A stretch of 64,000 nt of DNA, taken from Magnolia sinica. Its lineage: Eukaryota > Streptophyta > Magnoliopsida > Magnoliales > Magnoliaceae. Below the pieces are notes generated by a model that was not told where the DNA came from, ran no database searches, and saw only the letters and a list, made by a program, of their open reading frames with translations. A program made the translations under genes and the position numbers. How positions within the stretch are numbered: position 1 is the stretch's first letter; each line of letters starts with the position of its first letter. Shown here one piece after another: positions 1-48,193 of this stretch. The stretch covers positions 60,677,493 through 60,741,492 of the forward strand of contig NC_080575.1 of the NCBI RefSeq assembly GCF_029962835.1, in the 5' to 3' direction.

Positions 1-335
1 TGACCATTAAAAACGTTATGGGGGCCGTAAAAGTTTTAGATCAAGCTGATATTTATAGTTTCCCTTCATCCGGGTCTTTATGACCTAATCAACATATTAG
101 ATTTCAAATAAACAATACAGTGGGCCTTAGGAGGATTTTAATAGTGGATATCCAATCATTATTGATTTCCTGTGGTGTGGTCCACCTGTGACTTATATAC
201 CTATCAATTTTTCTATGAAGCCCTAAAATGATCTCTAAAAATAGATGAACAGAATGGATGACACACATACATCATGGTGGGGCCCACAGAGCACCCTCCA
301 CCAGTAGCCAATCCGTCTCCCAAATTTGGGCGCGC
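1..335 (+). mobile_element. Right arm of a foldback MITE (MULE-like)
   Basis: This stretch resembles one arm of the foldback element at 31565-32100: the same order of a centre ('atcaagctgatatttatag'), a 'gtggatatccaatcatta' block, and a tip reading 'acacatacatcatggtgggg'. The left arm would lie outside the window. The element is non-coding. No target duplication can be checked because one end is missing. The Mutator-like assignment rests on the long inverted arms and is uncertain. Confidence 0.5.
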
Positions 336-456
336 GCTCAAAACAGAGCCGCGCCCAAAGAGAGGTATTTCACTTTCTCTCTCTCTCTCTCGCTTTTATT
401 TTGCCTCGTAGCAAATATCGGGGTCTTAGATCGTAATTTCTGCTCTTGTCCAACAG

Positions 457-2136
457 CGATCTTTCTCGCAACTATCTCAATGGATCGATCCCTGCAGCAT
501 GGGCTTCCCTTCCTCTCACCGATTTGTAAGTCCTCTTCCATAATTGCATCTGGAATCTTCTATAACTAATCTACAAAACCCTCTCTTCCTCTCTCACTCT
601 CTGAGGGACATACCCGAAAAATTGTTTGAACATTGTAGGTCGCTTTTGGGAAATCACATTTCTAGAACAATTCCAAAGGAGCTAGGAAACATCATGACAC
701 TCAAGTCACTGTATGTGATTCACAACTTTCATTTGATTAGGCAGATGAAATTGCGTTTAGCTACTATTATTCATGCAATTCGTGAGTTTGCAGAGTCATT
801 GAAGTTAACGAGGTCGAAGGACCTCTTCCTCCAGAGCTTGGTAATTTGCGCAGCTTGGAGAGATTGTAAGATTCTCTGTTTTGCCACTGCAATTTTTATT
901 TTTTTATTTTTCAAATAGTGACCTAATACTCATTTCATAGTTATCTTTCCGGGAATTCATATCTTTACTCATCTTGATTGATATTTTCCATTAGCATCTT
1001 TTCTTTCTACTTTTGGTAATTCAGAAGTACAAATTTGTACTGTTGTATCACCAATGTTGAAAGAAGGTTGCCATTATCAATCAGGGCAGGTGCAAATAGT
1101 GTCACCCTTATCTTTATTACATTTGAGCAGCTGCTAAGATTTGTGACCTGAATTGAGAATCTCTAAAATTTAAATGTTATTTATTTATTTATTAGTTCTG
1201 GTTGCCTCCTATGTCCTAATTAAACAGAAAATGTGATTAATGTGTAAATATATGCTGGCCATTGTTAGGTTACATTGGTGAACAGAATGGCTGAGGGTCA
1301 ACCAATTGCGAAGTGTTTATGCTATTCAACACTATCAGTTGACGGTCAATATGTGGTGTTGAGAGGACTCCACGACCATTTTAAGGAGTGGAATGCCCCA
1401 CTGGGTCCACACCGTGTAGCAGGTGTGGGCCTCACTTATCACCACCATCTGATCATGATCAGTTGGTAGTGATTGGCATACAGCCTATGGTGATAATAAA
1501 CAATAGGTGTTTTTTTAAAAAAAAAAAAAAAAAAACTTTTTTCCTAACATAATCCAATATATTACTGGTGCAGCCTTGCTTGTTCGAATAACTTGACAGG
1601 AGAAATACCTATTACCTTCGGCAACTTGAGAAACTTGACGGACTTGTATATCAATTCTTCACTAGTCACTGGGGTTGTCTTTTCCATTTAGAAATTATAA
1701 CTTATTAAACTCCATTCATATTATTTCTGTAAGATCCCTGATTTCATCGGGAACTGGACACGACTCAAGAGGCCGCAACAACTTAAATTGCTATGTCTTC
1801 CATGTAAATTGCTTCTTGCTTCTATCGGAGAACATCTATATGAACCATGATTCTCAACCACTGCAGGCATATGCAAGGCACCTCTATGACGGGACCTATT
1901 CCTTCCAACATCTCTTTCTTGGTGAATCTAATTGAACTGTGAGGGCACATTCCATGTTCTTTTCTTGCTGCTTTATTACTTAGAATTTTCTTGGATTCAT
2001 ACCCAGCCTTGGAAGTGGTATGAAATGAATTACTTTATTGAATCCAATATATTTTGATTTTCAGGAGGATATCTGATTTGAATGGATCGAGCATGCCTTT
2101 CCCTGCATTGGGGGATATGACCAAAATGCAGAAATT
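457..2136 (+). pseudogene. LRR receptor kinase fragment (LRR-VIII type), seven LRR exons
   Basis: Six leucine-rich-repeat exons lie at 457-525, 639-710, 794-865, 1574-1645, 1867-1938 and 2065-2136. The first is 69 bp and the others are 72 bp. Each is bounded by AG and GT and ends inside a leucine codon, so they splice in one phase and one frame. Readable motifs include DLSRNYLNGSIP, EGPLPPELGNLRSLERL, NNLTGEIP and QGTSMTGPIPSNIS, typical of plasma-membrane LRR-VIII receptor kinases such as At1g53430. A seventh exon near 1690-1776 keeps IPDFIGNWTRLK but has lost a base and has no good acceptor. Signal peptide, malectin-like, transmembrane and kinase parts are absent; unrelated gene pieces follow. 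I read it as a captured or truncated fragment, not a working receptor. Confidence 0.8.
1268..1470. repeat. MITE-like insertion within an LRR intron
   Basis: The intron between the third and fourth LRR exons holds a segment with 'gggtccacaccgtgtagcag' and 'gtgggcctcacttatcacca', the composition of the short repeats found elsewhere in the window. Ends and target duplication could not be fixed. An A-rich run follows at 1517-1535. Confidence 0.35.
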
Positions 2137-2415
2137 GTGAGTTGAATGGATATACCCCTGATGGCATAAATATATCATTGTTCGTTACTTCTTTTGTTTC
2201 TAGTCTATATCCATTATATTATGAACTTACGTTTTGTGTTTGCTCTAATATAATAAGATGTCAATTTTAGATTTCTTCTCTTCCTCTCTATGCTTGAAAG
2301 AATGGGATTTTGGTTCAAATGCATAAGATGGACATTGAAATCATTGGTCTTCTTTGATTTTTTTTCTTTACCATTTCTTCTGTAAAGTGCTTCTAAGTTG
2401 TTTGAACTGATGCAG

Positions 2416-2465
2416 GTAAGAAGTTCTGGAATGTGTTTCATCTGCAGCCTATGCGTGATCAGAAG
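2416..2465 (+). pseudogene. Phototropin LOV2-region exon fragment
   Basis: A 50-bp exon-like piece sits between a good acceptor (gatgcag) and a donor (aag/gtacaa). It encodes KKFWNVFHLQPMRDQK, which matches the conserved end of the second LOV domain of plant phototropins (FWNLFHLQPMRDQK in the family), blue-light receptor kinases of the plasma membrane. No other phototropin exon is visible on either side. It lies 280 bp after the LRR piece and on the same strand, so it is a single captured exon. The short length limits certainty, but the motif is distinctive. Confidence 0.65.
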
Positions 2466-2559
2466 GTACAATTCCAAAAAAAATATCATCTAATTTCACA
2501 TTATTTCCATTGCTTTATGATTATACAATTCCAAAAAAATGAGAACCAGAGGTTAACAG

Positions 2560-2640
2560 TACACAGACTGCTGAAATTGATGTTTTACCAATAGATCACT
2601 ACTATGATGCCTTAGGAGGGCCTGAATTGGATACTCTCAG
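2560..2640 (+). pseudogene. Single exon of an unidentified host gene (possibly SLAC/SLAH-type)
   Basis: An 81-bp open segment between acceptor 'ttaacag' and donor 'ctcag/ggtaca' encodes TAEIDVLPIDHYYDALGGPE followed by LDTLR. The block YxALxGPELD is similar to what I remember upstream of the membrane domain of S-type anion channels (SLAC/SLAH), but this is recall only. No membrane segment follows. Splice-like borders and placement beside the phototropin exon suggest another captured exon. Confidence 0.3.
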
Positions 2641-3185
2641 GGTACATGGACTTTTGTTTTTTTTGTTTTTGCTGCTACTGTTGTTGTGCTCCATTTACTT
2701 CGTTCAGCTGACAGGATATCGTCTCTATAATTATAAATGTTGTTTCAAAGCAAGCGTGGAGTGCTACTAATTTGGAGAGATCCGACATAAATAAAGTCTT
2801 CTATTGATACGAGAGCATAATCAAGTTCTCAAATCTGCACTTGATTGAAAAAGATCTTAATGGCATTAGTGCTAACATGGAATGCATATGCAAAGTTAGT
2901 TATTTATGTGCAAAAAAAGAAAAAAAAAAGAAAAAAAAAGGAGAATGTGGTCCTGACCCAATTGAGGAAGTTATGCCCAAAGTGTAGTTAGCATAGTGTC
3001 CCAATGGGAATCAGAAGTTTAACTGGTAATGGTGTCATCTCTCCTTGATAGGGGCAATAGTAATGGATAGATGATTGAAAGGAGAAATAAAGTCAACCAT
3101 ATAGGGTACATTCAATTTATTTGGGTGCATTTTCAGTTAAATTGATACCTTTTTTTTAAAATTATTTTTCCTTTTCTTCAGATAC
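2641..3185. other. Non-coding spacer between captured fragments
   Basis: AT-rich sequence with A-rich runs near 2916-2940. I recognise no coding segment, repeat end or RNA here. Confidence 0.4.
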
Positions 3186-5165
3186 TGAATCTGCTAAGGC
3201 ATCTAGAAGACAACTGAAAGAGACAATCTACTCATTGTTGTTTGACATGAATGTTCCTGCTGTTTGTAGAAGAAGTGCAAGCATGGCAGCTGAGACCACT
3301 TCTCATCACATTATTGCTGAAGTGTGCAACATTCGCAGGAAGACAAATAAATCTTCTTAAAAAAAGGTGAAAGAGCGTGCTTCTTTCTCCCAAAGCAATT
3401 TATAACCTCTTGACAAGAGTGCATGATCTCATCCATGCTCCGCTCGAGTACTTTCAAGCGCATCTTATCAAGGTGAATGTGGCCAACAAGGCTTGTATCC
3501 GCTTGAACTTTCAGGTATTTGTCAATGCCTTTAAAGCGACTTTTTTCAAACGATTCTGAACTAAATATGCTGCATTCTCCTTGCAATGCATTTTCCCATA
3601 GAAGCACTCATTCAAATATAGAATAACTCTCCGATCTATAATATCATTCTTGAAGTTAACTTTTCACAAAAGTATTTCCTTCATCGACTCCAATGAAGAG
3701 TTGTTGCTCTGAGAAGAATCAATAACTGCTGTATATGCAGGATTTGATATTTCAGTAGTAGCTAATACACCAACCGGTTCACTAGCAAGAGACCTGCCAG
3801 GACTATTTTTGTCCACTGTCCATACTCAAATTGAATTATAGAATTGTTGCAGAGGTTTCTCACCGTCCCATCATAACAGATAACGACATCTCTAAGTGTG
3901 GCCATTAGATTTTTAAACAAAGTTCTGGAAGAACGGATCAACAAGAACGGTCAACACTTCCCTGGATGATATGGAATGGACCAACTCTTCATAGGGGTCA
4001 GACCTTGAAAAAAGGAGCTCTTAACTAACCCAAATGCCTTAGAAGGATAGTCAACACCATTAATAGAATACTTATTTTGGAAGTGGAAACTCATATCACC
4101 ATTAACAGAATACTTATTTTGGAAGTGGAAACTCATATCACCATTAACAGAATACTTATTTTGGAAGTGGAAACTCATATCCTCAACCAAACGCCTTGAA
4201 TAAAACTTCCCTTGGTCATAAAGTTGAAGCCCCAAAAAGCCAAGTTGTTAAACAACCTTACTGATAGCTGAATCATTTTTAGAATCTATCAAATTACCCA
4301 AAGCAGATAACTTTAGAATACGAGTCACGATTGGCAGTTTTATAGTTTTCAGGTAGCTTTCCACTAACAACTCTACAAGTTCATTGTAATTTGATCTCAA
4401 GAGAAGCAGGAAAGGTGATATGTCCTGAATTTTCTTCTTTATATCTTCAGTAACAGTCTTGGGAATGTCAAAATCATTCAGGCCAACATTATATCCTTCT
4501 AAAAAGAGAATGTCCTTCAGCAATGGCTGCAACATATTAAAGAACTTAACAGCCTCTTCTGTTCCCTTCTTGTCAAGAACAGAAGTAACAATCTCTGTGA
4601 ATGATGACTGCAGTAAATCTCTATTGAAATCAATCCTCACCATTTCACTTTTACTGATCAAATGCCTCTCCCCAAAGTAGTAAAAAAACGCAGGTAAAGC
4701 ACTCTGTACCATTTGCAAAACAGTCCACAGAGGACCTGTATGGTGAGCCTTAAGCAAAGCAGGTTCCAGTAAACTGGTGAAACACACATAGCCAACTGTT
4801 GCGCAGTCGCTTTGTTCAAGAAAAAAGTCCTAAACATGAGTTTAAGTGACAATAAAGAATCATGCACCAGTTGTAAATTCAGACTACCACTATGAGAACT
4901 ACGGATTTGCTTTTCAACACTAAACAGCTCCAAAACTTCTGCCTTTGCTGCTAGAGACTGGATAAAATATATGAACACAATCCCCATCAAAATCTGCACC
5001 TAGGGGAGCACAAATAAGGGGATTGATCTTAACAGTATGGTCGTCATGCACATAGACAGAAAATGTTTGTAATGAATGTTTATGAGTACTAGGTGGCCTA
5101 TTAATGAAAACAATGTCTCCATCCATAATCCGCCTATTTATGATTTGACTAACTTTCAAATCTGA
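3186..5165 (-). pseudogene. NRPE1: Pol V largest subunit (NRPE1) pseudogene fragment
   Basis: Read on the minus strand from 5159, the segment encodes the catalytic middle of the largest subunit of RNA polymerase V, the nuclear enzyme that makes scaffold transcripts for RNA-directed DNA methylation. Visible in order are IMDGDIVFINRPPSTHKHS, the metal-binding ADFDGD (4980-4997), QSLAAKAEVLELFSVEKQ, FLNKATAQQLAM, LKDILFLEGYNVGL, FLGLQLYDQGKFYSRRLVED, FKNLMATLRDVVICYDGTVRN, and near the end WSQLPCLHFFY. Frameshifts lie near 4960, 4790 and 3950. In-frame stops occur near 3680 and at 3312-3314, and an SEPG segment before FKNLM is missing. N- and C-terminal parts, including any Argonaute-binding repeats, are absent. 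No intron is evident over about 2 kb. A broken captured copy is most likely. Confidence 0.82.
4066..4181 (-). repeat. 42-bp in-frame tandem repeat inside NRPE1 fragment
   Basis: Units start at 4066, 4108 and 4150, exactly 42 bp apart, giving nearly three copies of a 14-residue block (DMSFHFQNKYSVNG). The family normally has this block once. The copies are nearly identical, so the expansion is young compared with the frameshifts around it, or was homogenised. Confidence 0.9.
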
Positions 5166-6660
5166 TTTAGTTTACTCTGATTCTCTTTTTTCCAATTTGG
5201 TTTTGAAAAATTTGAATGTTGGAGAAGTGCTACCGTGATTTGTCTGGATGTATTTAAGTGACTATTTTGTGTGTTCTCTACACCATAATGAAGGACCACA
5301 ATTGGTCACAGAAAGTTGTGAGGTGCATTGGACACAGAAAGGCTGAAGGAGATCTAATAGTCCAATGCTCCTGAGCTTTCACAAAGACCATTTTTCAGTG
5401 AAGCTATCATCTAGAAATGCAATAATCATTTCAGTGAAGCTGAAATGACCAATTTGAAACTATCATAGTATTTGTATTGTGTGATCATTACTCCAAGTTC
5501 AACTAGAAAGGAATGTAATTGCAATTTGTACTCCATTATGAATAACACTAACCGTCAATACAGTTCAATCGTTGCCACCTAATTGAACTGAGCAATTGCA
5601 ATCCAACTCAGGTGTGTTTCAAAATGCAGCGTAAAAGATGCATTTAGATCAATGGATTATTTCTAGCCTGGTGAACTGTGATTAGCTCTGTTTTGAGCTT
5701 GTAGATTATCTTTGCATTAAGTCGATGAAACTCAATCAGGCCTTGAAAGATTTAAATTTTATTCTGTATTGTGACTTGAATAAAAGATATGATGTCATTG
5801 AGAAAACCCAAAAGCCACAACTCAGTTTTTCATTTTTTCTTTTTGCAGTGGCTATAAGTACATGCCTTATCAACTTTTGGCTTGCCATGTCACGATGGAG
5901 GTGAGTTTCTTGGAAGATAACTTGTAGCTCTTTGTTGGAAAGTATTCTTCTTCATCATGGTTATCAAACAATTCCTGTTACAACAAAAGTGGCTGATGTG
6001 CCAGTCCATGTTGGCATTGAGTTGTAGTTTGACCACCAAGTGTGTCAGGTTTTTGGGTATCACTCTGTGATTAGAGTTCATAGAGAACCCACGGACATGT
6101 TATGGAGTCACAAATCATATGGCTGTTTCCAGTGACTAGTAGAAATGATGTCACATGATTTTCAGTTCAATTGGCAGGTGTATTACAGTGTAGGGAAGTG
6201 TGAAGCTAGAAAGAAGCATGATCTTCCATCTCTGGATGACCCTGCAATCTTTGAGCATATCTTCTTTAGTGAATACATGTATGATCCTTCCAAATGTTGG
6301 GTGGTGTAGATAAAAGAGAAAGATGGCGATGATGTTAAGATGCAAGGACAAGGAAACAAGTGTGCATGGCTATGGAACTTGACTAGAAAGTAGGTGGTAA
6401 GGAAGTTGTCGAAATAGGAAGAAGACGACGATTTTTTGTATATTTGTTTATTATGTTAAACTTATATGTATTTATGCGTGAATAAGTGTGATGCGGATAA
6501 GATTGTTTGTGTTTGGATGAATGTACTTTTATGTTTGGATGGATTTTCTTGTTTGGGTTTAGATGGATGTGAATGTGAATATGATGAAATATATTATATA
6601 ACAGGTGTATATCAGGATGAATATGATGAAATATATTGTTAACAGGTGTATATCAGGAAT
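5166..6660. other. Decayed region with exon-like pieces, unidentified
   Basis: No complete gene is seen. A 51-bp exon-like piece at about 5849-5900 has a pyrimidine-rich acceptor (tttttgcag) and a donor (gag/gtgagt). At about 6178-6400 a plus-strand frame reads KKHDLPSLDDPAIFEHIFF and, past one stop, KEKDGDDVKMQGQGNKCAWL. I cannot name either piece. Since a CACTA-like repeat array follows at 6700, the second could be a remnant of that element's own protein or another captured gene. Confidence 0.35.
6577..6660. repeat. 42-bp tandem duplication
   Basis: The block starting 'gaatatgatgaaatatatt' at 6577 recurs at 6619 with a few changes, including the shared 'aacaggtgtatatcagga'. It lies just before the hairpin array and is non-coding. 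Confidence 0.75.
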
Positions 6661-6704
6661 TTTGTGCGGAATTTTGAGCTAGAATAATTTTTTAAAAAGA
6701 GACT

Positions 6705-7217
6705 TTTAGCAACGAAAATTTTTGTAGCTATAAGTTTTGTAATTTACTTTTAGCTGCGAAAATTTTCGCTGCTAAAAGTCTTGTACAATTTTTTAGCGAC
6801 GAAAATTTTCGTCGCTAAAAGTAGAATAATTTTCGCTGCTAAAAGTCTTGTACAGTTTTTTTAACGACGAAAATTTTCGTCGATAAAAGTTTTCTAATTT
6901 ATTTTTAGCGACTACAATTTTCGTCGCTAAAAGTTTTGTAATTTTTGTTGGCAGCGAAAATTTTTGTAGCTAAAAGTTTTGTAATTTATTTTTGGCAACG
7001 AAAATTTTCGTTGCTAAAAGTCTTGTACAGTTTTTTTAGCGACGAAAATTTTCGTCGCTAAAAAGCTTGCATTTAGCGACGATTCAAAATTTTCGCTGAG
7101 AAAACGCTTCGACATCGGTCTTATAGCGACGAATTTAGCGACGAAAACTTTCGTCGCTAAAACGTTTTAGCTACGAAAATTTGACTTATAGCAACGAAAA
7201 TTTTCGTCGCTAAAAGT
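6705..7217. repeat. Hairpin repeat array, CACTA-like subterminal repeats
   Basis: About twelve copies of a palindromic unit, best form 'agcgacgaaaattttcgtcg' plus 'ctaaaag', are spaced about 40-45 bp apart. Several copies are perfect inverted repeats (about 6795-6820 and 7039-7063); others vary at the second codon-like triplet (gctgcg, gcaacg). Arrays of this kind are known as transposase-binding subterminal repeats of plant CACTA (En/Spm) transposons. I could not find the CACTA/TAGTG terminus on either side, so the element is truncated or the assignment is wrong. Confidence 0.6.
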
Positions 7218-7229
7218 GAAATTACCCTG

Positions 7230-8882
7230 GCCGTTGATCAGACTGATCTAAGGTCTAGGTGGGCTATACGGGTCGATTCCTAGCTTTAACGGTGGATTCT
7301 CGTTGATCTAATGGTCGAATGTCAATGGCTAAAATAGTCCCTGGAATTTACCAGATGATTGGGTCTATATGTTGTAGGGACATGGTGGTGGAAACTACCA
7401 TCATTTCCGGTTTCTTAATGTTTCTTTTCAAAATAGGTGGGGTCCACCTGTGATGATCTTTCAGAGAATTCACTCCATTCACCGTCTTTGGCACACTGTG
7501 CTAACCTATGGTCTAAATTTTGAAATAGATCCAAACTTCAGGTGGGCCGCACAATCTGTTAATGCATTAAATGTTATTTACCGTCAAACCCCCATGCACG
7601 TAGAAATTTGAATGAATTGAGATATTCTGTGAGAAGTTCACTTTACTACTTGTAGTTGTACGATCCGCTCTGTTCATTGTATTTAACATATCCTGTTAGG
7701 ATTAAGGTCCAAAAATGGGACAGATCTGTTGATCAGGTGGGCCGCACGGTATGTTTTAGTTTCAACGGTAGTATGTAATGACAATCATGAATATTTACGA
7801 TATTGCCCTTCATTTCTCAACCAGCTTCCGACGTCCATTACGTCAAAGTGCGCCGCCCGAATTTCTTAAATTTTGGCAAGCATTTTTCATTTTTCGTGCT
7901 CTTTCCCTTAGTCTAGTTTGGACCCCGATCTCCCAGAGATGTCCAAGATGCTCCTTTAGTGGCTTGCACACTCCGTAATTCAAAATAATATTTGTACACC
8001 TCCGATTGACAAGTTACCAGATGGTTGAAACTTAAACCCGAAGATCTTCACAATGACCGATTCATCCTGATATTCGGATGACCAATTTGGCGGATCCAAA
8101 CCTGATGGATGGTCAGGTGACTTGTTAAAAATAAGGAAGCTTTATAGTTAGCACTCTAACCATGCATATGGGTGGATGTATGGTCAGCTTTGTAAATAGG
8201 TAAACACAAAATGGGTTTCCGGAGTGATTGTGGGTAAGACTTATATAACGTTAGATTCAAGTGACTTTCTTATACATGAAAGTTTCTCATATTCTGATTC
8301 TAATGGTGGGTTAAGCATATTCATATGGTGTGAATAAGATGGACAGATCAAAATCTTGATTTGATAAGTATACGAATGGATGTAGAGGTCAAGTAGTTGA
8401 TTTACTGTGATCTAAGGCCTAAAATTCGACGTGTACGGTTAATTTATGATAATTAGGCCTGGTATAAAGTTTCACACAAAATGGATCATGAGAACCTTGT
8501 GAGTTGGAATTCAAGGAATATGTCGATGGCATTTTCATAATTATTGTTGATTTAAGAGTTTTGTGAAATCTAATGGTTCTAGATGATTATATGTCATTTT
8601 CTAAACAATTCTTACAAAAGGACTTATATTTAAATCATTATAAATAAAGACTTATTCATTGATTTAGTTAAAGGAAGGTACATATATCGAACTAAATGAG
8701 CAATGGTCGGACGACTTGATTTATGGATGAATATCATTCATAATCAGTCAGATTCATATTGGAGGATGGATGTAGGGTTAGGTTGACTAGATTGGTACCG
8801 TACACATATATATACTAAGTTAAATTTATGGTAACACTCGAGGACTTTCAATACTCGAGTATTGAAAAGTTCGGGGTGTTAC
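7230..8882 (-). mobile_element. LTR remnant of the TGTAAC-type retroelement
   Basis: The plus-strand end (8828-8882) 'cactcgagtattgaaaagtt'-like block followed by 'cggggtgttaca' matches the LTR ends at 28310 and 29498. Similarity is clear from about 8400 ('aaaattcgacgtgtacggtt' block); further left it is presumed. On the minus strand the LTR begins TGTAACACCCC, and the next bases (gcgcccacttaaac) resemble a decayed version of the polypurine tract seen at 29499. The other LTR end is not visible. Confidence 0.6.
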
Positions 8883-9149
8883 ATGCGCCCACTTAAACCT
8901 CACAATATATGGAACTTAACAGACACTTAAACACATCGTTAATTAGGAGGAGTATACTCATCCGTTCACACATTAGGTGTGTTTGAATTTTAGGGAGTTA
9001 AAATATAATGACCTGAGATTTTGGTGAACATTCATGCATCTACATACATGCAAACTTGCATCCATCTAAACATTCATGTAAAAATAGTCATGATATGTGT
9101 GATCAATTTTTATTTAGAGTTATCGTTGGTTTTAGTGTGTGTATGTGTC

Positions 9150-13040: not shown

Positions 13041-13782
13041 AGGTGCATCAAGCACCCCGCCTCGTATTTTACGAGATTATTTACAACCAGCGAGGGTGAG
13101 TACACCCTCATGCATGGTTTTTCCCAAAAACATAGGACATATGGATATCAAGCCATAGGTAATCCAACTCCTTCCAAAATTCTATGGGCTTGAATTTGAA
13201 AATCCGTATCTACATCTAAAAGAGTTTGACGACATTATAGCCACTCTATACTTTCCAAACGTGTTCGATGACACGGTCAGGCCGAAACTCTTTCCTTTTT
13301 TTTGAAAGAGAAGGCTAAGACGTGGTTACATTCACTACGTCCTCGATCTATTGGTAGATGGAATGACATGACAAGGGAGTTCATAAAGAAAATTTTCCCA
13401 TACCATAAGACGAACACCCTTAGAAAGTCAATCATGAACTTCGTCCAAAAGGAAGATGAAACATTCTTCCAATGTTGGGAGCGGTTCAAGGATCTTGTCA
13501 GTTCATGCCCACAATACAGTTTTAAAACGTGGCGCATCACGAACTTTTTCTATGATGGACTGACATCTCCCATGCGCCAATTACTCGAGACATTGTGTAA
13601 TGGAAAATTTATGAATAAAAGTGTCGATGATGTGTGTGACTACTTTGATAAGCTTGTTGAAAACACACAATCATGGGAAGTCTCCCCAAAATCAAACACC
13701 ATGTCTAAGTCGACTCAATTCAAAGAGAGGAGTGGAATGTATCTCTTGAAAGAGGACGATGATGTCAATGCTAAAGTGGTCA
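13041..13782 (+). pseudogene. Athila-like gag fragment
   Basis: Plus-strand frames encode an LTR-retrotransposon gag (capsid precursor): PKFYGLEFENPYLHLKEFDD upstream, then after a frameshift near 13300 KEKAKTWLHSLRPRSIGRWN and REFIKKIFPYHKT, with KEDETFFQCWERFKDLVSSC and YFDKLVENTQSWE. This is the Retrotrans_gag domain as seen in Athila elements. The frame runs into LTR sequence at about 13783, so the C-terminus, nucleocapsid and pol are gone. Confidence 0.8.
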
Positions 13783-14359
13783 GATTGATTATAAGGAATA
13801 CTTCCAGTTTTTAATGGTTTGTTGTGACTGTGATAGCTTTGAGTATGTTCTTTTCATTATTGAGATTGTGAATTTAGGAAATCCTATTGTTCACCATTGT
13901 CCCTTGGACATGGTTGGATGATAGAATCCTCCCTAACTCTCACAATTTTCCCAGATTGGTTGTGGATTAGCAATTTCTATTGTTTGCTTTGTCCCAGATT
14001 GGTTTTGTGATGGAATCACTTCTAGTTCTCATGCCTCTCATCCATTGAGAACTAGATCAAAGGAAGTTCAGATTGGATAAGATGAGACTCTGATTCTAGT
14101 TGTGTTCATGAATCAAGCATAGATCTCCCTAATCTCTACAAGTAGATCCTTGAAAACCTTAGTTTTCCACCTTTGAATTTACAAGTTTTAGTTAAATAAT
14201 TCACAATTACTCTCTCGAATTTTCCAGATTTAGATTTTCGTCTTCTAGTTCTAGTTCTAGTTACTCTCAGAAGACACACAAGTTCAGTCTTTGTGGATTC
14301 GACCTCGGTCTTACCAAGATTATTACTGCATCGCGACCCTACACTTGGGGTTGTGAACA
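13783..14359 (+). repeat. Athila-like 3' LTR, 5'-truncated
   Basis: It matches about 11893-12505 of the 5' LTR from 'ttgattataaggaatact' to 'ggttgtgaaca', with small deletions near 13830 and 13990. The first two thirds of the LTR are absent. Confidence 0.85.
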
Positions 14360-31560: not shown

Positions 31561-31564
31561 GCTA

Positions 31565-31830
31565 GTCACGCCGCCAGCAGCCAGGTGGCTAGTGGTAGGT
31601 GCTTTGTGGACCCCACCATGATGTATGTGTTTTATCCACGCCCTCCATCCATTTTGAAAGATAATTTTAGGGCTAGAACCTAAAAATGAGGTAGATCTAA
31701 ATCTCAGGTGGATCACACCATGAGAAAACAGTAGTGATTGGATGTCTACCATTAAAAACCTCCTAGGGCCCACTGTAATGGTTATTTGACATCTAACCTG
31801 TTGATTAGGTAATACAGACTTGGATGAAGG

Positions 31831-31870
<40 letters not shown>

Positions 31871-32100
31871 GCTTGATCCAAAACTTTTGTGCCCCAAGGA
31901 AGTTTTTAATATGGTGGGCGTTAAATTAATACTGTGCCGTGAGATTTGGATCAACCTCATTTTTGGGATCATACCATAAAATGATTGGGAAGAATGGGTG
32001 GACGGAATGGATGAAACACATACATCATGATGGGGCCCATAGAGTACCGACTACTAGCCAATGGATGGTGGCGGGGGGAGTAGCGTGTCTAAGTTTTGTG
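31565..32100. mobile_element. Foldback MITE with long inverted arms
   Basis: The left arm ('gtggctagtggtaggtgctt', 'ccatgatgtatgtgttttat', 'aatgaggtagatctaaatct') is the reverse complement of the right arm ('gagatttggatcaacctcat', 'atgaaacacatacatcatga', 'gtaccgactactagcc'). The centre is a (TA)n run at 31832-31868. Exact ends and target duplication were not resolved; a Mutator-like origin is a guess from arm length. Confidence 0.65.
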
Positions 32101-34139: not shown

Positions 34140-34855
34140 TTAGGGATGGACGTGATGATCACCATCTTCCTCAAGGGGATAACTTATCTGAATCTATGGA
34201 GCTTCTCTAGACTCCTCACAGATATACCTCGAATCCACGGAGGAAAAAAAAAAAAGAAATAAATTCTAGAAATTTAAAATTTGATTGATGGATGATAAAA
34301 ATGAATTTACAACCCTTTAAATGGTGATACCAAACCTTGGAATAAGTTTCATAATCAAACTCCAACTTAAACTCCCTAAAATTCGTGACTTACTATAAAT
34401 AGTAAACTTACTATTTATAGATGGCCATGATTCCTACTAGAATTCATGGTTTTCGACCAAAAATAGAAAGTGTCCTATTTGGCTTAACAATGTTATTTTT
34501 CTATTTTTTTTTAAAGCACTTTTCATGTTGGACACAACTCCTAAAGCTCAAAGGATGAAGAGTTACAATCAAATTAAAACTTTTTATAAATAGTAAAAAT
34601 GAAATTAAAAAAGGATTTTTGACCGTCGATTTGATGGAATCTTGCAAATTCGGCATGGGCAACTCGGCGTAGTAGGTTGGGTGGCTAAAATAGCTTCTCC
34701 TATGCCAAAATCATATATGGTGCATCGAATAACTCATTCCAGTTTGCGAGATATGCATATTTTAGTGTTCTAATGGTCTTGATCACTTTCGACTTCGATC
34801 GGGCCTTCTCTAGTCTATCTTAGACATGAAAGTGTCTGTGACCCGCTCAACATCA
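34140..34855 (-). repeat. Gypsy 3' LTR
   Basis: It aligns with the 5' LTR pieces 50261-50343 and 52280-52924. On the minus strand it begins TGATGTTGAGCGGGTC. The purine-rich 'aaagtggagggaac' just before it (34856-34870) fits a polypurine tract. The left border is approximate by a few bases. Confidence 0.8.
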
Positions 34856-35930
34856 GTTCCCTCCACTTTAAAAAAACTCGTACTTGAGTTTTCGTCCCGC
34901 TTCGGTTCATGATACTCAGTCAGGTCCGCGACGTTGGAAGTATACGAAATTTTCATGTCATTCGGAAGATCAACAACGTAAGCGTTATCATTGATCTTTC
35001 GGAGGATCGGTATTGGCTCAATCTTCTTGTTCTTCAACTTGTTGTAAGTCCCAGTTAGAAATCTCTCCTTACGTAGATGGACCATAACTTGGTCGCCCAC
35101 CTCGAACACCTTTTGTCGCCGATACTTGTTGGCTTGCTCCTTGTATTTGTCGTTTGAGGCATGCAACTTGGCTTGCATCTTTGCATAAATACCCATAATT
35201 CGGTCCGCCATGTTTTTTATTACAATGCTCATGCCCAGAAGCTTGGGTAAATGGACTAAGTCAAGTGTGTGACGAGGCATACGACCATAAACAATCTCTA
35301 ATGAAGACTTCCCTATCGAGCGGTTCACCATGTTGTTGAATGAAAACTCCGCTTGAGACAAGCTAAATCCCACTACTTCAGTTTTTCACTTGAAATACAT
35401 TGAATGAGGTTTCCTAACGTGTGATTCATAATTTTAGTCTTCCCACCAGTATGTGAGTGGTAGGCACCATTGAACTAAATTGTGTACCGAACTGACTCTA
35501 CAACGTCCACTAGAAGTGGCTAATGAATTTCATGTCACAGTTAAAAGTAACAGTTTTGGAAACCCCGTGTAGCTGTATGACCTCTCTAAAGAAAAGGTTC
35601 GCCACATGTGTTGAACCGAGGGTCTTCTTACATAAGATAAAGTGCGCAATCTTTGAGAAATAATCTACCACCACGAACACGTAATTCATGCCACATTGTG
35701 TTCATGGGAGACCAAGCATGAAGTCTATAAATAAATCCTCCTAAGGGCTGTCAGACACAGGTAATGGGATTTAGAGGCCCATATTCTGAGACTACCCCTT
35801 GGAGGTCTGAGGAATGTTACATTGCTGCACTGCTTTACCCATGTCATATACCAATTGTGGTTAGTAATACCACTCCACAAGAGCTCACGACTTGTGTGGC
35901 CCAAGGTGTCCACCAAGGCCCCTCTATGTA
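34810..35930 (-). pseudogene. Gypsy integrase
   Basis: From about 35930 down: VYDMGKAVQQC zinc-region remnants, then MNYVFVVVDYFSKIAHFI (first catalytic Asp), VANLFFREVIQLHGV and a damaged second site (CDMKFISHF). The intact frame 35373-34810 encodes AEFSFNNMVNRSIGKSSLEI, VFEVGDQVMVHLRKERF, VVDLPNDMKIS and NVADLTEYHEP. The frame ends 46 bases inside the LTR (VTDTFMSKID), so pol overlaps the 3' LTR. Several stops lie between 35374 and 35930. Confidence 0.85.
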
Positions 35931-36414: not shown

Positions 36415-37371
36415 CTATCGGCATGCCTCCTGTGATAAGATTTGTCCAATTCCGACATATGAGGCGTCACACTCGACCTTAAACAGGTTGTCAAAAATAG
36501 GAAGAACCAAGATGAGTGTTGTGGACAACTGATGCTTGATTTCAGCAAAGCTTTTGTCAGCCTCATTGGTCCACGGAAACGGCCCATTTTTCATGCAATC
36601 TATAATAGGTGCGACTATCGTACTGAAATTTCGAAGGAATCGATGATAAAAGGTCGTCAACCCATGGAAACTCCTCACTTCATGAATGTTCATCAAGATC
36701 GGCCATTCCCTAATGCCTCTCACCTTTTCATCATCCACACGAATGCCTATGGATGCCACAATAAATCCTAAGAACAACAGTTTGTCCGTTAAAAAATTAC
36801 ACTTCTTCAAGTTGAGGTACAATTTGTTAACTTGCAGGACTTGTAACACCAACTTAATATATTTCATGTGCTCCATCTCATTCTCTCTATATATCAGGAT
36901 GTCATCAAAATATACTACCACAAATAGGCCAATGAACGACTTTGACACTTGATTCATCAAATGCATAAGTGGTTTGTGCATTTGATAGACCGAAGGGCAT
37001 GACCAATGACTCATATAACCCTTTCTTGGTCTTGAATGTCATTTTTCACTCATCACCCGGACAGATACGAATCTGATGGTACCTACTCCTCTGATCTAGT
37101 TTAGAGAACACATTGACACTTTCTAACATATCGAACATGTGGTCGAACTGTGGTAATGAGAAATGATATTTAATGGTAATCTTGTTAATTAACCAGCTAT
37201 CGATACACATGCGCCAACTCCCATCTTTCTTAGGCGTTAAAAACACTATCACGGCACATGGGCTCATGCTCTCTCCCAAAAAACCCTTACCGATTAATTC
37301 CCGCACCTGCCCCAAAAGTATCTCACACTCTTTTGGACTCATCCAATAGTGAGGGCGGTTGGGTAGGCTAT
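36415..37371 (-). pseudogene. Gypsy reverse transcriptase
   Basis: Minus-strand frames encode RPHYWMSPKECEILLGQVRE, TPKKDGSWRMCIDSWLINKI, FSKLDQRSRYHQIRICPGDE and, after a frameshift near 37030, the catalytic [30 protein letters not shown] and [16 protein letters not shown]. The RNase H start ([15 protein letters not shown]) closes the frame. The LARD sits at 37372, within the N-terminal part; the upstream half is at 48194. Joining the flanks after removing one GCTAT keeps the reading frame (...HVPGN/SLPNRPHYW...). Confidence 0.88.
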
Positions 37372-40300
37372 TGTAACGCCCTGGAAATCGAGGGTCGTGC
37401 ATACACTCGACTCTCGAGTTCCTGAGTGTTACTGATAACCGATTTTCATTAATGCATTTGATCAGGTTCAAATGCGGAGCCTAAAATTTCCTGGAACTGA
37501 AGCACAACCACACAAGTCTACTGAAATGAAAGAAATCTATCATATATACAGGTCCAAAAGAATACGGATGGGTCGCCCGAGGCGTTGCCTAACAAAAATC
37601 ACAAAAATATCATGCCCAAAGGAATAAGACTGAGTCTGCTACTCAGAAATCCAACGTCCCGCCTATTGATCCGATGAGGTCCCGCTCATTGGCTGGAAGT
37701 AAGAGAACTCGTCCTCCTCTTCGAGGCTCACCTCACCAGGATCCTCCAACCCTGAGTCATCTGCATCTATGAACGGGTCTGGTCGGTGTTTTAAAACACC
37801 GTCCCAGATGGGAGTGAGTGATCAACTCAGTGGCTGCTATTACTCTTAAGTTATCACAGGCATCAATTGTAATATGATCCTAATGAAAATCAGTCAACCA
37901 TAAACATCTAAATAGTCTTATTAATATACATGCATGTAGGATGATATGATGCATGCCCTCACCACAACGCTCCCTCGAGCGACTCCATCTAACGATCGCG
38001 TATGACAACACTCCCTCAGTGCGACCTCGACTGCCAAGCCACCACCCTAACTAGTGCGATGCAATACGATCGTGTTAGTTGAGTTATTAGTTAGGTCCAT
38101 TCATCTAGTAGATTGGAGAATCTGGCACACCCCACGTATTAATGCCCTAAATTGGGTGCGAGGCCAAGACCCCCCAATGCGTGAGGCCGAGACCCCGCGG
38201 TCCGTGATCCCGTCGGGTTCCTCATCCCCGACTTCAAGCACATGAGGAGTGCCAAGAGAAAGCGATCGCTTACAGTCACTATGGGGAGGCGCGGTACCCC
38301 AGCATAGGCCGACAGCTCGGACACAGTGTCTCATTCCACCATGCCCGGCTCATGAAGCTGTGGACCAATTTTAAGTGGGTTATTGATGGGCTACAATGAT
38401 TGTAGGGTGTTTCAGGTTTCATACATGTGTGAGCAAACAGAGTTAACAAATAAGGTTGGTCAGATAAGAGGCTAGACCGCACGAGTCCAGGCAAGTACGT
38501 GGGAGAACGACATCAGATGCAAGTGACCCATGTAGTCTAACTACTGTCGCCCACCCGCACTCGCCCACATCCATGGGTTTAGCTTCAAGGTGGTCATACC
38601 AACGGGGCTGCCTTTGCTCTCCTCATATTCCTGACCAACCCAAGGGTTTGGGTGGTGATTCATAACATGTCAACTATCAATGTATCTCTTGCATAAACAA
38701 CATCATTTTCTCATACTTCTTAATATTCAATTCCAAATTTCTACCAACAAGTAAAGCTAATAATATCATGAACAAGGTGCGTGTGTGTTGTGTGGGTTGG
38801 TGAGGAAGTTAAGCACTTCTCACCTCCCTTAGAACTAAAATGCACAAAAATCAATGAATCATACATGTTATAGGGCACATCATATGAGAAAATCAAACAA
38901 GGCATGAGCATGTAATCATCCATACACAATCATGTGAGAGGCAGGAACAACATCATATGAGAGCCAAACATACAATTCCATACAATCCCAACATACATGC
39001 AATTCCTAGGGTTTCTCTAGATTCTTCAAGTATAGCATTTAAGCAATTAAAATCATTAAACTCATACTAGAATTGGTGCTAGGCCACCTAAGAACAATAG
39101 TCCGCACTTATAGATTGTTGAAGACTTGGAAAACGACCTAGAAGCGCTGAACTTGGTGTCGATCGGCCGGAATCTTAAAACAATGTACTTACATATTAGG
39201 GTTACATGCATTTCCTAGCTCAACCCCAAAGATTACCAAAAATGATGGGTGCTTACCTCTCCATTCGGATTAAAGTGGCTTATAGTTGTGGATATGGGAG
39301 GGGGAAGATATTTCTCTAAGGTTCCAAGCTTCCTTGGGCCCCACCTCCTACCACACACTCATTTCCTTCCTTCTTCCTCTTTCTCCTCCTTTCTCCTCTT
39401 TCTCTTCTCCCTTTTCTCTCTTCTCTCTTTCCTTCTCTAGGGCAAAATCGTATGGGGAGAGGGGTGCCCAAAAGAAGCCCCTTTTATAATGCTAGATTTG
39501 GTGCAAATGGCCCCAAGTGTTGGGTTTTTACTATACTAGACCTATGGGAGGGTCTTTCTAAGCTCTAGGGCCCACTATGGGGTGTACAAGTTGATATACA
39601 CCGTAGGATGGTTAGCCTTAATGATGATCTTCGTATGGATACGATTGGCCCGCCATTTGGATGCGCCGATCAACAGATACGATTAGAAGTTTGTTCAACG
39701 GTCACCGATAGTCGATCGGGGCCGCGGCTATACGGATATGAGTAGAGAAATATTCTTACTTCACGGGTAAAGTTTGGTCGTAAACCGACGGTCCGAAATC
39801 CTCAACTTTGCATAAGAGTGGACGACCCAATTCACTTAAGTTTCAATTCATTCTTTTAGGGTATTTGCACTTCTCATGCACTCGCCCTTTAACTCAAGTT
39901 GAGCGGTTCTGGACAGCACCCAGGTCCGACTCCCGCAATGGAAGTCAAGCCCAGTAAGACGGATATTATTCTATAGTTTTGGAACTAGTGGCCCACCAAC
40001 GAGCGGTCTAGATCTTGTTTGGAAATTCAGGGCATTTCTGAAATGAATTAGGTATTGAGATTTCTCAGGGGCAATTATTAGGGTTTAGATTAACTATGTC
40101 CATAGTGTGGCCTATTTATAACTAGTGAAAGTGGAGATTTGGTCATGCTTACTCTAAACCATCAGTTTTAGGCTAAAAGAGTAACGGTGTTGATTTAGTC
40201 TATTATTCAAGATCCGGGCCTTATCTGACTTGGCTTAGGTTAGATATTCAATTTCGTCATGATTTTCTTAATTAGTTAGCGATGGGTCGGTTAGATTTGG

Positions 40301-40525
40301 GTCCTATATGAGTAAATCATGGGGCTAAACCTGTTGTTCAAATAATCGGGTGGATTCGTTGGCTTCCTACGGTTGATTAAACGAACTTGTGCGGACCTTT
40401 ACTGGTACTACTCCTGTATAAACTAACACTGAGTGCCAATAGTCATTAAGTGGTATTATAAGTTAATTAATGAAAAAAATTCAAGGATTTGAAAATTCAA
40501 AACAGTGAAAATCCAGGATGTTACA
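37372..40525 (-). repeat. LARD 3' LTR
   Basis: It matches 45031-48193 throughout, mostly with single transitions. In the first ~130 bp I count about eight substitutions and one indel, and fewer beyond. It contains a pyrimidine tract (39360-39440). A minus-strand TATA candidate (ttataaaag, 39481-39489) lies upstream of it. No gene. Confidence 0.92.
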
Positions 40526-45028: not shown

Positions 45029-45030
45029 CT

Positions 45031-48000
45031 TGTAACGCCCTGAAAATCGGGGGTCGTGCATACACTCGACTCCTGAGTTCCTGAGTGTCACTGATAACCG
45101 ATTTTCATTAATGCATTTGATCAGGTTCAAATGCAGAGCTTGAAATTTCCTGGAACATGAAGCACAACCACACAAGTTTACTGAAATGAAAGAAATCTAT
45201 CATATATACAGGTCCAAAAGAATACGGATGGGTCGCCCGAGGCGTTGCCCAACAAAAATCACAAAAATATCATGCCTAAAGGAATAGGATTGAGTCTGCT
45301 ACTCAGAAATCCAACGTCCCGCCTACTGATCCGATGAGGTCCAGCTCATTGGCTGGAAGTAGGAGAACTCGTCCTCCTCCTCGAGGCTCACCTCACCAGG
45401 CTCCTCCAGTCCTAAGTCACCTGCATCTATGAACGGGTCTGGTTGGTATTTTAAAACACCGTCCCAGAGTGGGAGTGAGTGATTAACTCAGTGGGTGCTA
45501 TTACTCTTAAGTTATCACAGGCATCAATTATAATATGATCTTAATGAAAAGCAGTCAACCATAAACATCTAAATAGTCTTATTAATGTACATGCATGCAG
45601 GATGATATGATGCATGCCCTCACCACAACGCTCCCTCGAGCAACTCCATCTAACGATTGCGTATGACAACACTCTCTCAGTGTGACCTTGACTGCCGAGT
45701 CGCCACCCTAACTAATGCGATGCAATGCGATCGTGTTAGTAGAGTTATTAGTTAGGTCCATTCATCCAGCAGATTGGGAAATTTGGTACACCCCATGTAT
45801 TAATGCCCTAAACTGGGTGCGAGGCCAAGACCCCCCAATGCGTGAGGCCGAGACCCCGCGGTCCGTGATCCCGTCGCATTCCTCATCCCTGACTTTAAGC
45901 ACATGAGGAGTGCCAAGAGAAAGGGATCGCTCACGGTCACTACGGGGAGGCGCGGTACCCCAGCGTAGGCCGACAACTCGGATACAGTATCCCATTCCAC
46001 CATGCCCGGCTCATGAGGCTGTGGACTAATTTCAAGTGGGTTATTAATGGGCTACAATGGTTGTAGGGTATTTCAAGTTCCATACATGTGTGAGCAAACA
46101 GGGTTAACAAATAAGGTTGGTCAGATAAGAGGCTAGACCGCACGAGTCCAGGCAAGTACGTGGGAGAACGACATCGGATGCAAGTGACCCATGTAGTCTA
46201 ACTACTGTCGCCCACCCGCACTCACCCACATCCATGGGTTTAGCTTCAAGGTGGTCCTACCAACGGGGCCGCCTTCGCTCTCCTCGTATTCCTGACCAAC
46301 CCAAGGGTTTGGGTGGTGATTCATAACATGTCAACTATCAATGTATCATCTTGCATAAACAACATCATGTTCTCATATTTCTTAACATTCAATTCCAAAT
46401 TTCTACCAACAAGTAAAGCTAATAATATCATGAACAAGGTGCGTGTGTGTTGTGTGGGTTGGTGAGGAAGTTAAACACTTCTCACCTCCCTTAGAACCAA
46501 AATGCACAAAAATAAATGAATCATGCATGTTATAGGGCACATCATATGAGAAAATCAAACAAGGCATGAGCATGTAATCATCCATACACAAAATCATGTG
46601 AGAGGCAGGAACAACATCATATGAGAGCCAAATATACAATTCCATACAAACCCAACAAATATGCAATTCCTAGGGTTTCTCTAGATTCTTCAAGTATAGC
46701 ATCTAAGCAATTAAAATCATTAAACTCATACTAGAATTGGTGCTAGGCCACCTAAGAACAATAGTCTGTACCTATGGATCGTTGAAGACTTGGAAAACGA
46801 CCTAGAAGCGCCGAACTTGGTGTCGATTGGCCGGAATCTTAAAGCAATGTCCTTGCATGTTAGGGTTACATGCATTTCCTAGATCAACCCCAAAGATTAC
46901 TAAAAATGATGGGTGCTTACCTCTCCATTCGGATGAAAGTGGCTTATAGTTGTGGATATGGGAGGGGGAAGATATTTCTCTAAGGTTCCAAGCTTCCTTG
47001 GGCCCTACCTCCTACCTCACACTCATTTCCTTCCTTCTTCCTCTCTCTTTCTCCTCCTTTCTCCTCTTTCTCTTCTCCCTTTTCTCTCTTCTCTCTTTCC
47101 TTCTCTAGGGCAAAATCGTATGGGGAGAGGGGTGCCCAAAAGAAGCCCCTTTTATAATGCCAGATTTGGTGCAAATGACCCCAAGTGTTGGGTTTTTACT
47201 ATACTAGACCTATGAGAGGGTCTTTCTAAGCTCTAGAGCTCACTATGGGGTGTACAAGTCGATATACACCATAGGATGGCTAGCCTTAATGATGATCTTC
47301 GTATGGATACGATCGGCCCGCCATTTGGATGCGCCGATCAACAGATACGATTAGAAGTTTGTTCAACGGTCACCGATAGTCGATCGGGGCCGTGGCTATA
47401 CGGATATGAGCAGGGAAATATTCTTACTCCACGGGTAAAGTTTGGTCGTAAACCGACCGTCCGAAATCCTCAACTTTGCATAAGAGTGGACGACCCAATT
47501 CACTTAAGTTTCAATTCATTCTTTTAGGGTATTTGCACTTCTCATGCACTTGCCCTTTAACTCAAGTTGAGCGGTTCTGGATAGCACCCAGGTCCGACTC
47601 CCGCGATGGAAGTCAAGCCTAGTAAGATGGATATTATTCTATAATTTTGAAACTAGTGGCCCACCAACGAGCGGTCTAGATCTTGTTTGGAAATTCAGGG
47701 CATTTCTGAAATGAATTAGGTATTGAGATTTCTTAGGGGCAATTATTAGGGTTTAGATTAACTATGTCCATAGTGTGGCCTATTTATAACTAGTGAAAGT
47801 GGAGATTTGGTCATGCTTAATCTAAACCATCGGTTTTAGGCTAAAAGAGTAACGGTGTTGATTTAGTCTATTATTCAAGATCCGAGCCTTTTCTGACTCG
47901 GCTTTTGTTAGATATTCAATTTAGTCTTGATTGTCTTAATTAGTTAGCAATGGGTCGGTTAGATTTGGGTCCTATATGAGTAAATCATGGGGCTAAACTT

Positions 48001-48193
48001 GTTGTTCAAATGATCGGGTGGATTCGTTGGCTTCCTACAGTTGATTAAACGAACTTGTGCGATCTTTTACTAGTACCACTCCTGTATAAACTAACACTGA
48101 GTGCCAATAGTCATTAAGTGGTATTATAAGTTAATTAATAAAAAAAATTTAAGGATTTGAAAATCTAAAACAGTGAAAATTCAGGATGTTACA
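45031..48193 (-). repeat. LARD 5' LTR
   Basis: Direct copy of 37372-40525. It carries the same pyrimidine tract (about 47025-47106) and the same minus-strand TATA candidate (47149-47157). Paired short frames in both LTRs are duplicated non-coding sequence. Confidence 0.92.

Follow-up and report, generated by a model that had tools for sequence, protein, structure and literature searches.

Gene capture by CACTA transposons is already known. As described in passages from PMC8903248, the Pack-CACTA elements of Arabidopsis, rice and maize have CACTA terminal repeats and target duplications, carry pieces of several genes and occur in multiple copies. The soybean CACTA element Tgm-Express also holds host gene fragments (excerpt of PMC1947982), and the Chenopodium CACTA elements combine captured gene fragments with an internal tandem satellite (excerpt of PMC8978399). 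In rice, a CACTA element with the microRNA miR820, which targets OsDRM2, multiplies a piece of a host DNA-methylation gene along with itself (passages from PMC3459959). Here we describe an element of Magnolia sinica that reaches into the left edge of a 64,000-nucleotide stretch of contig NC_080575.1 (forward-strand positions 60,677,493 to 60,741,492; hereafter the window). It is very probably a non-autonomous CACTA transposon of ~21 kb with captured gene pieces, that is, a Pack-CACTA. Compared with the elements covered in those parts of PMC8903248, it is long (21 kb), contains an extended telomere-like array and carries a spliced, cDNA-derived passenger. Its gene pieces differ from those reported for Tgm-Express, and both passengers and plant group differ from those of the Chenopodium elements. 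Unlike the miR820 element as presented in PMC3459959, it carries pieces of NRPE1, encoding the largest subunit of RNA polymerase V (Pol V), and of MET1; the NRPE1 piece is long and spliced. The spliced silencing-gene passenger and its spread are what distinguish this Pack-CACTA from the elements above: a DNA transposon carries an RNA-derived passenger from the machinery that silences transposons. In the literature searched (one library, chosen terms), no paper on capture of NRPE1 or MET1 by transposons was found, and nothing useful on the subterminal motif. The features are as follows.

Window -13793 to 7223 (G000:C3:60663699-60684715), plus strand: whole element, delimited by CACTA ends.
1-7223, plus strand: right-hand third of the element, from alignment of nine other fetched copies; the left terminus lies outside the window.
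457-525, plus strand: exon 1 from a leucine-rich repeat (LRR) receptor-kinase gene (borders ..caacag / gtaagt; Pfam LRR_14; tblastn).
639-710, plus strand: LRR exon 2, 72 bp (sequence borders; tblastn).
794-865, plus strand: LRR exon 3, 72 bp (sequence borders; tblastn).
1574-1645, plus strand: LRR exon 4, 72 bp (sequence borders; tblastn).
1649-1772, plus strand: broken LRR exon, interrupted (SSLVTG ... KIPDFIGNWTRLKR; sequence; tblastn).
1867-1938, plus strand: LRR exon 6, 72 bp (sequence borders; tblastn).
2065-2136, plus strand: LRR exon 7, 72 bp (sequence borders; tblastn).
2195-2198, no strand: probable internal-deletion junction, 4 bp shared at the joint (split matches 1-1742 and 1739-2544 in query numbering; longer copy L036).
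2416-2465, plus strand: phototropin LOV2 exon, AG/GT borders (PDB 4hhd, E 1e-8).
2550-2641, plus strand: SLAH3 (S-type anion channel) exon, AG/GT borders (PDB 9m7r, E 6e-4, the sole match at E up to 10).
~3206-5164, minus strand: spliced NRPE1 segment, antisense to the element (PDB 8hyj, residues 398-1020, E 2e-174).
4055-4181, no strand: 42-bp triplication inside the NRPE1 segment (repeat analysis of the sequence).
5403, no strand: subfamily junction (matches beginning at query position 404; relative L051).
6165-6294, plus strand: piece of the BAH2 exon of MET1 (DNMT1) with its splice acceptor, ~34 bp missing inside (PDB DNMT1, E 3e-5).
~6702-7215, no strand: right subterminal array of TTTTAGCGACGAAAATTTTCGTCGCTAAAA units, the hairpin array (repeat analysis of the sequence).
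7216-7223, minus strand: remnant of the right terminal repeat, GTGAAATT (comparison with nine other copies).
49-312, no strand: dispersed repeat piece with inverted ends, nested in the element (second copy at 31561-32084; alignment blocks of other copies run through it).

The initial annotation had classed the hairpin array as of the CACTA subterminal type, had proposed a gene-capturing carrier and had suggested looking for other copies in the same fragment order and for CACTA ends. All of this was borne out; second copies and element termini, whose absence would have spoken against the proposal, were both found. Across the plant's genome of 1.84 Gb, ten places on six contigs carry window 457-3000 in full length with 98-100% identity, and the matches number 43 if partial copies are included; fragment order is the same in all ten full-length copies. 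The nine other copies that were fetched align across window 1-7223, the right-hand third of a 21.0-kb element, and share a common end point. In each of them the hairpin array is followed immediately by GTGAAATTTCTTGTAGTG, the reverse complement of a CACTA terminus, and the right terminal inverted repeat reads TTTCTTGTAGTG. The window's own copy passes into unrelated DNA after 7223; as it has lost the final 10 bases (TCTTGTAGTG), which the nine others keep, the right terminus is not visible in the window. At the other end, CACTACAAGAAA forms the left terminus 13.8 kb beyond the window's left edge, where CACTACAAGAAAG at -13793 is followed by an array of TTTTAGCGACG; the element ends are characterised by CACTACAAGAAAGAGGG. 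The left-end pattern gave 380 matches in the genome and none for a reversed control, and among roughly the first 100 of the 380 places listed, six of the ten copies have a left end at the expected position. The six elements measured are 19.2-21.5 kb long (computed with 7225, not 7223, as the right end of the window's copy). A left subterminal array (window ~-13668 to -12767) is the counterpart of the right one, placing both terminal repeats and subterminal arrays at either end.

Also within the element is a degenerate telomere-like tandem array (GTTTAGGTTTAGG) of ~6.5 kb, at window ~-12393 to -5830 (L037, L009). From -6000 to 450, a reading of open reading frames only, and not a full transposase family search, found no long coding-like frame. 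The host gene fragments lie inside this mobile unit and are common to its copies. Ten elements were inspected for target duplications, eight of which have both termini readable; four of these eight are flanked by exact 3-bp duplications (AAT, AGA, GCG and CAT), as expected of CACTA elements, and the chance of finding at least four in eight is 4e-6 with uniform bases. Termini, subterminal repeats, duplications and near-identical copies together support the carrier proposed initially.

The NRPE1 passenger, which the initial annotation had correctly placed on the minus strand, is spliced. Only one intron-bearing NRPE1 locus was found in the genome, at C7:95.746 Mb; its 591-amino-acid open exon is followed by a 126-bp GT...AG intron, a further exon and then another GT donor, and it is native-like in the part of the gene that was read. 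All ten element copies have these two exons fused precisely, without the 126-bp intron; in the window it is absent exactly between 3678 and 3679. Copies C7, C5 and C11b also depart from the native sequence precisely at the second donor, continuing into NRPE1 coding sequence, from which we infer a second splice, the following native exon lying beyond the DNA fetched. The remaining seven copies lack 35 bp at the second donor. Using 23 bases and allowing up to two mismatches, the spliced junction was found at 71 sites in the genome and the unspliced one at a single site, with none for reversed controls. As the ten copies match the exons of the C7:95.746 Mb gene with 95.4-97.3% identity in their NRPE1 parts, gain of the intron by the native gene instead of its loss from the copies is unlikely.

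Of the 71 spliced sites, 33 are no more than 6 kb away from flanks of the window family (as given by the matches listed in the searches with 457-3000 and 5000-7223), all 33 antisense to the element, and 38 lie elsewhere. A separate NRPE1 tally with one row per place gave 33 near and 33 elsewhere (66 of 108 matches given). One of the loci elsewhere, at C14:59.632 Mb, also carries the flank that adjoins NRPE1 in the element (93% over window 5117-5341) and reaches further into NRPE1, which may place it closer to the original retrocopy. Separately, an NRPE1-like segment just upstream (probe ~278-421) recurs at ~90 places (99 of 582 candidates scored). A group of copies shares one end point, residue 475 of the composite, a hint of further carriers that might be retrotransposons.

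The MET1 piece was missed initially. All seven PDB matches for 6165-6294 at E up to 10 are DNMT1. Against the genome's own MET1 exon, 6192-6294 is 97.1% and 6165-6190 is 92% identical. A genome search with a MET1 protein probe returned a native-like gene at C2:24.404 Mb with eight exon matches and, with 78 of 185 candidates scored, 23 further places with the BAH2 exon, four of them inside window-family matches. The region 5900-6300 had also been considered as a remnant of CACTA transposase (DUF4216); this was rejected, as it gave weak Pfam matches only, BAH among them, and its PDB matches are to DNMT1/MET1. Two other MET1 segments recur in the genome: one around probe 289-388 at ~20 places, some with neighbouring exons and so possibly gene copies, and one at 441-498 at 16 places, nearly all carrying TGA.

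In all, at least five ordinary plant genes contributed pieces to the element, and every piece except NRPE1 looks genomic. The LRR-kinase exons recognised on the plus strand proved genuine: six exons of 69-72 bp with AG/GT borders and one broken exon lie between 457 and 2136, and the joined exons matched Pfam LRR_14 (E 1e-11). They were also checked by tblastn with an LRR-VIII sequence. Searching the window with plant kinase and malectin sequences gave no convincing match. The phototropin exon was likewise upheld as LOV2, and an exon left without a name in the initial annotation is real and belongs to SLAH3. The claim that the plus-strand pieces keep their splice borders held for six of the seven LRR exons and for the phototropin and SLAH3 exons, and failed for the broken LRR exon. 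These exons, with both borders, and the MET1 piece, with its splice acceptor, contrast with the spliced NRPE1. The initial inventory of the mosaic thus stood for the pieces it listed; it lacked MET1, did not have NRPE1 as spliced rather than genomic, and the boundaries are now -13793 and 7223. The phototropin exon is separated from the SLAH3 exon by a stretch with a 16-base direct repeat (TACAATTCCAAAAAAA; 2467-2539), possibly a trace of their joining. A longer copy, L036, contains a further LRR exon and a pentatricopeptide repeat (PPR) E-motif piece (Pfam E_motif, 1.8e-11). Apart from the MET1 exon, the other reading frames (at least 18 amino acids) of 2140-3200 and 5165-6705 had no PDB match at E up to 10, some single-letter runs having been removed from these negative-control frames before the search; therefore, the gene-piece matches are not noise. 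Native genes were located elsewhere in the genome for the two pieces searched in this way, NRPE1 and MET1, which also fits a gene-capturing carrier.

The mosaic appears layered. Longer copies hold ~3.2-4.9 kb of extra DNA at 2195-2198 (4.9 kb in L036, the one that was read). The sequence favours an internal deletion as the origin of the ten-copy branch, the two sides having 4 bp in common where they meet. An insertion that created the longer copies and duplicated 4 bp is less likely, as the LRR gene continues in their extra DNA. A second boundary lies further right: in a search with 5000-7223, 16 of the 40 places scored (among 3,090 candidates) begin at window 5403. In L051, the sole relative of this group that was fetched, DNA left of exactly 5403 is unrelated, and the segments of this interior that were tried had no Pfam match. 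Three of the 16 (C11:36.99, C1:102.85 and C11:78.29 Mb) have NRPE1 matches nearby, and their split at 5403 may have another cause. As the MET1 piece lies right of 5403, it is part of a wider 3' module. An exon-like stretch at 5849-5900 on the plus strand, with AG/GT borders (GYKYMPYQLLACHVTME), also lies in this shared module and has no PDB match.

These observations suggest a layered history. The 3' end from 5403 is a module common to other family members, with the MET1 exon piece already aboard. One branch additionally contains the genomic LRR-kinase, phototropin, SLAH3 and PPR pieces and the antisense spliced NRPE1. The genomic pieces may have been captured by the tandem-insertion route proposed for Pack-CACTA elements (in the parts of PMC8903248 and PMC13317346 concerned). 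NRPE1 would require a separate step before its entry, reverse transcription from spliced RNA, because its introns are missing; it could then have entered either by retroposition into the CACTA element or by capture of a nearby retrocopy. To judge from the longer copies, a 4.9-kb internal deletion with 4 bp shared would then have produced the ten-copy branch that includes the window. Transposition was presumably cut-and-paste and in trans, with transposase from a related element, and the copies would now be decaying as methylated, mostly passive passengers.

Sequence variation among the copies is compatible with such decay. Stops and frameshifts in NRPE1 (567 codons) vary between copies, and the pooled pairwise ratio of non-synonymous to synonymous change (dN/dS) is 0.61, with codons containing a stop or gap skipped and transition bias uncorrected. 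Measured against the commonest codon, and leaving out gapped codons, synonymous variants numbered 33.5 and non-synonymous variants 85.5, compared with a ratio of 1:3.7 expected from the numbers of sites. We read the NRPE1 copies as evolving near-neutrally. In the NRPE1 part, rare C-to-T changes counted as singletons affected 7 of 44 CG, 23 of 179 CHG and 16 of 653 CHH sites; in the LRR part, where variants present in one copy or two were counted, the figures were 8 of 78, 8 of 162 and 11 of 764. The odds ratios of CG plus CHG over CHH, 6.2 and 4.9, suggest a pattern as expected of methylated copies.

As two passengers derive from silencing genes, we compared six families across the genome. All three silencing-gene families tried (NRPE1, MET1 and RNA-dependent RNA polymerase, RdRP) have dozens of dispersed pieces, in contrast to 0, 0 and 2 for the three controls; two of the silencing families were picked because of the window, and NRPE1 and MET1 were searched with protein probes, the controls by family profile. 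RdRP, chosen as an independent test, matched 78 times across 52 loci, of which 40 have a single match. These single-match pieces are mostly short, lie within one profile segment and mostly contain stops, and at least one of the 40 lies in a gene cluster. The controls were confined to one locus for PRP8, three gene loci and nothing else for CPSF_A, and eight multi-exon loci plus two single pieces for MCM. The excess of silencing genes among dispersed pieces is suggestive only, given six families, the choice and probes just described, and linkage to CACTA elements shown for a minority of the MET1 pieces and for no RdRP pieces. Scattered copies of a short RdRP segment (~profile 379-450), most of them with stops, occur at ~40 places, and several RDR genes cluster at C15:63.0-64.3 Mb. 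The dispersed NRPE1 and MET1 copies are a warning for gene annotation and quantitative PCR in this plant.

A passive Pack-CACTA is the most likely explanation, and several observations weigh against it. Three of the eight testable copies (C8, C6 and C11b) have no 3-bp duplication, and copy C5 has 4 bp, ACCG, on both sides in place of one. Some flanks are shared, those of the window's copy and C8 on the left (12 bases shown), of C8 and C9c on the right, and of C9a and C9b; therefore, some copies spread by segmental duplication or recombination and not by transposition. No transposase source was identified in the interior from -6000 to 450, read for open reading frames alone. A dN/dS below 1 possibly leaves room for weak constraint. 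Helitrons and Pack-MULEs make such mosaics too, yet either is very unlikely as the carrier here, given the CACTA ends and 3-bp duplications. A Pack-MULE, which would have long terminal inverted repeats and a 9-bp duplication, was rejected because no long inverted pair bounds the mosaic within 1-9000; a nested Helitron, a type with TC...CTRR ends, a 3' hairpin and no target duplication, is possible for single pieces. The ordered LRR exons with good borders, close to the window edge, might instead belong to a native LRR-kinase gene into which unrelated DNA has inserted, or result from misassembly. This has practically no remaining probability: no convincing kinase or malectin match accompanies the exons, and the identical order at ten places on six contigs rules it out.

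The passengers might instead aid the element, if antisense NRPE1 RNA and the MET1 piece yielded small RNAs directed against Pol V and MET1, reducing both and so weakening silencing. In favour are the antisense orientation in 33 of 33 family loci, the dispersed pieces (71 spliced NRPE1 sites, 23 MET1 places among those scored and 40 single-match RdRP loci, compared with the controls) and the precedent of CACTA-borne miR820 against DRM2 in rice, as given in the relevant part of PMC3459959. However, the 33 antisense cases probably go back to one insertion and hence are not independent, evolution is close to neutral and the methylation signature suggests silenced copies. In addition, two of the three families were prompted by the window, the three controls were searched by profile, and linkage to CACTA elements was shown for a minority of the MET1 pieces and for no RdRP pieces. 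We regard such aid as unlikely. The same holds for its wider form, in which this genome's transposons repeatedly took up and multiplied pieces of NRPE1, MET1 and RdRP, and RNA from the CACTA family, with its antisense NRPE1 segment beside a MET1 exon, dampens Pol V and CG methylation. If true, it would be a counter-attack of a DNA transposon on RNA-directed DNA methylation. The counts of dispersed pieces make a benefit of silencing-gene passengers to transposons directly testable with small-RNA and expression data. Alternatively, essential-gene pieces could act as camouflage, so that the host pays a price for silencing the element, an epigenetic conflict modelled in the passages from PMC8978399 and PMC13317346 and in keeping with many-copy gene passengers. 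As the copies already look methylated, we consider this quite doubtful.

Some further observations concern the arrangement of copies and the rest of the window. Two pairs of elements on C9 are spaced ~16.6-16.7 kb and look like tandem duplications; these pairs may stem from unequal exchange within the telomere-like array. Two direct repeats of 3.16 kb, at 37371-40525 and 45030-48193, are 94.9% identical and 4.5 kb apart, possibly as long terminal repeats of a retrotransposon. Retrotransposon pieces were also found at 13272-13814 on the plus strand (gag; Pfam 1e-17) and at 34810-35385 on the minus strand (a Tf2-1-like SH3 domain; 1e-15).

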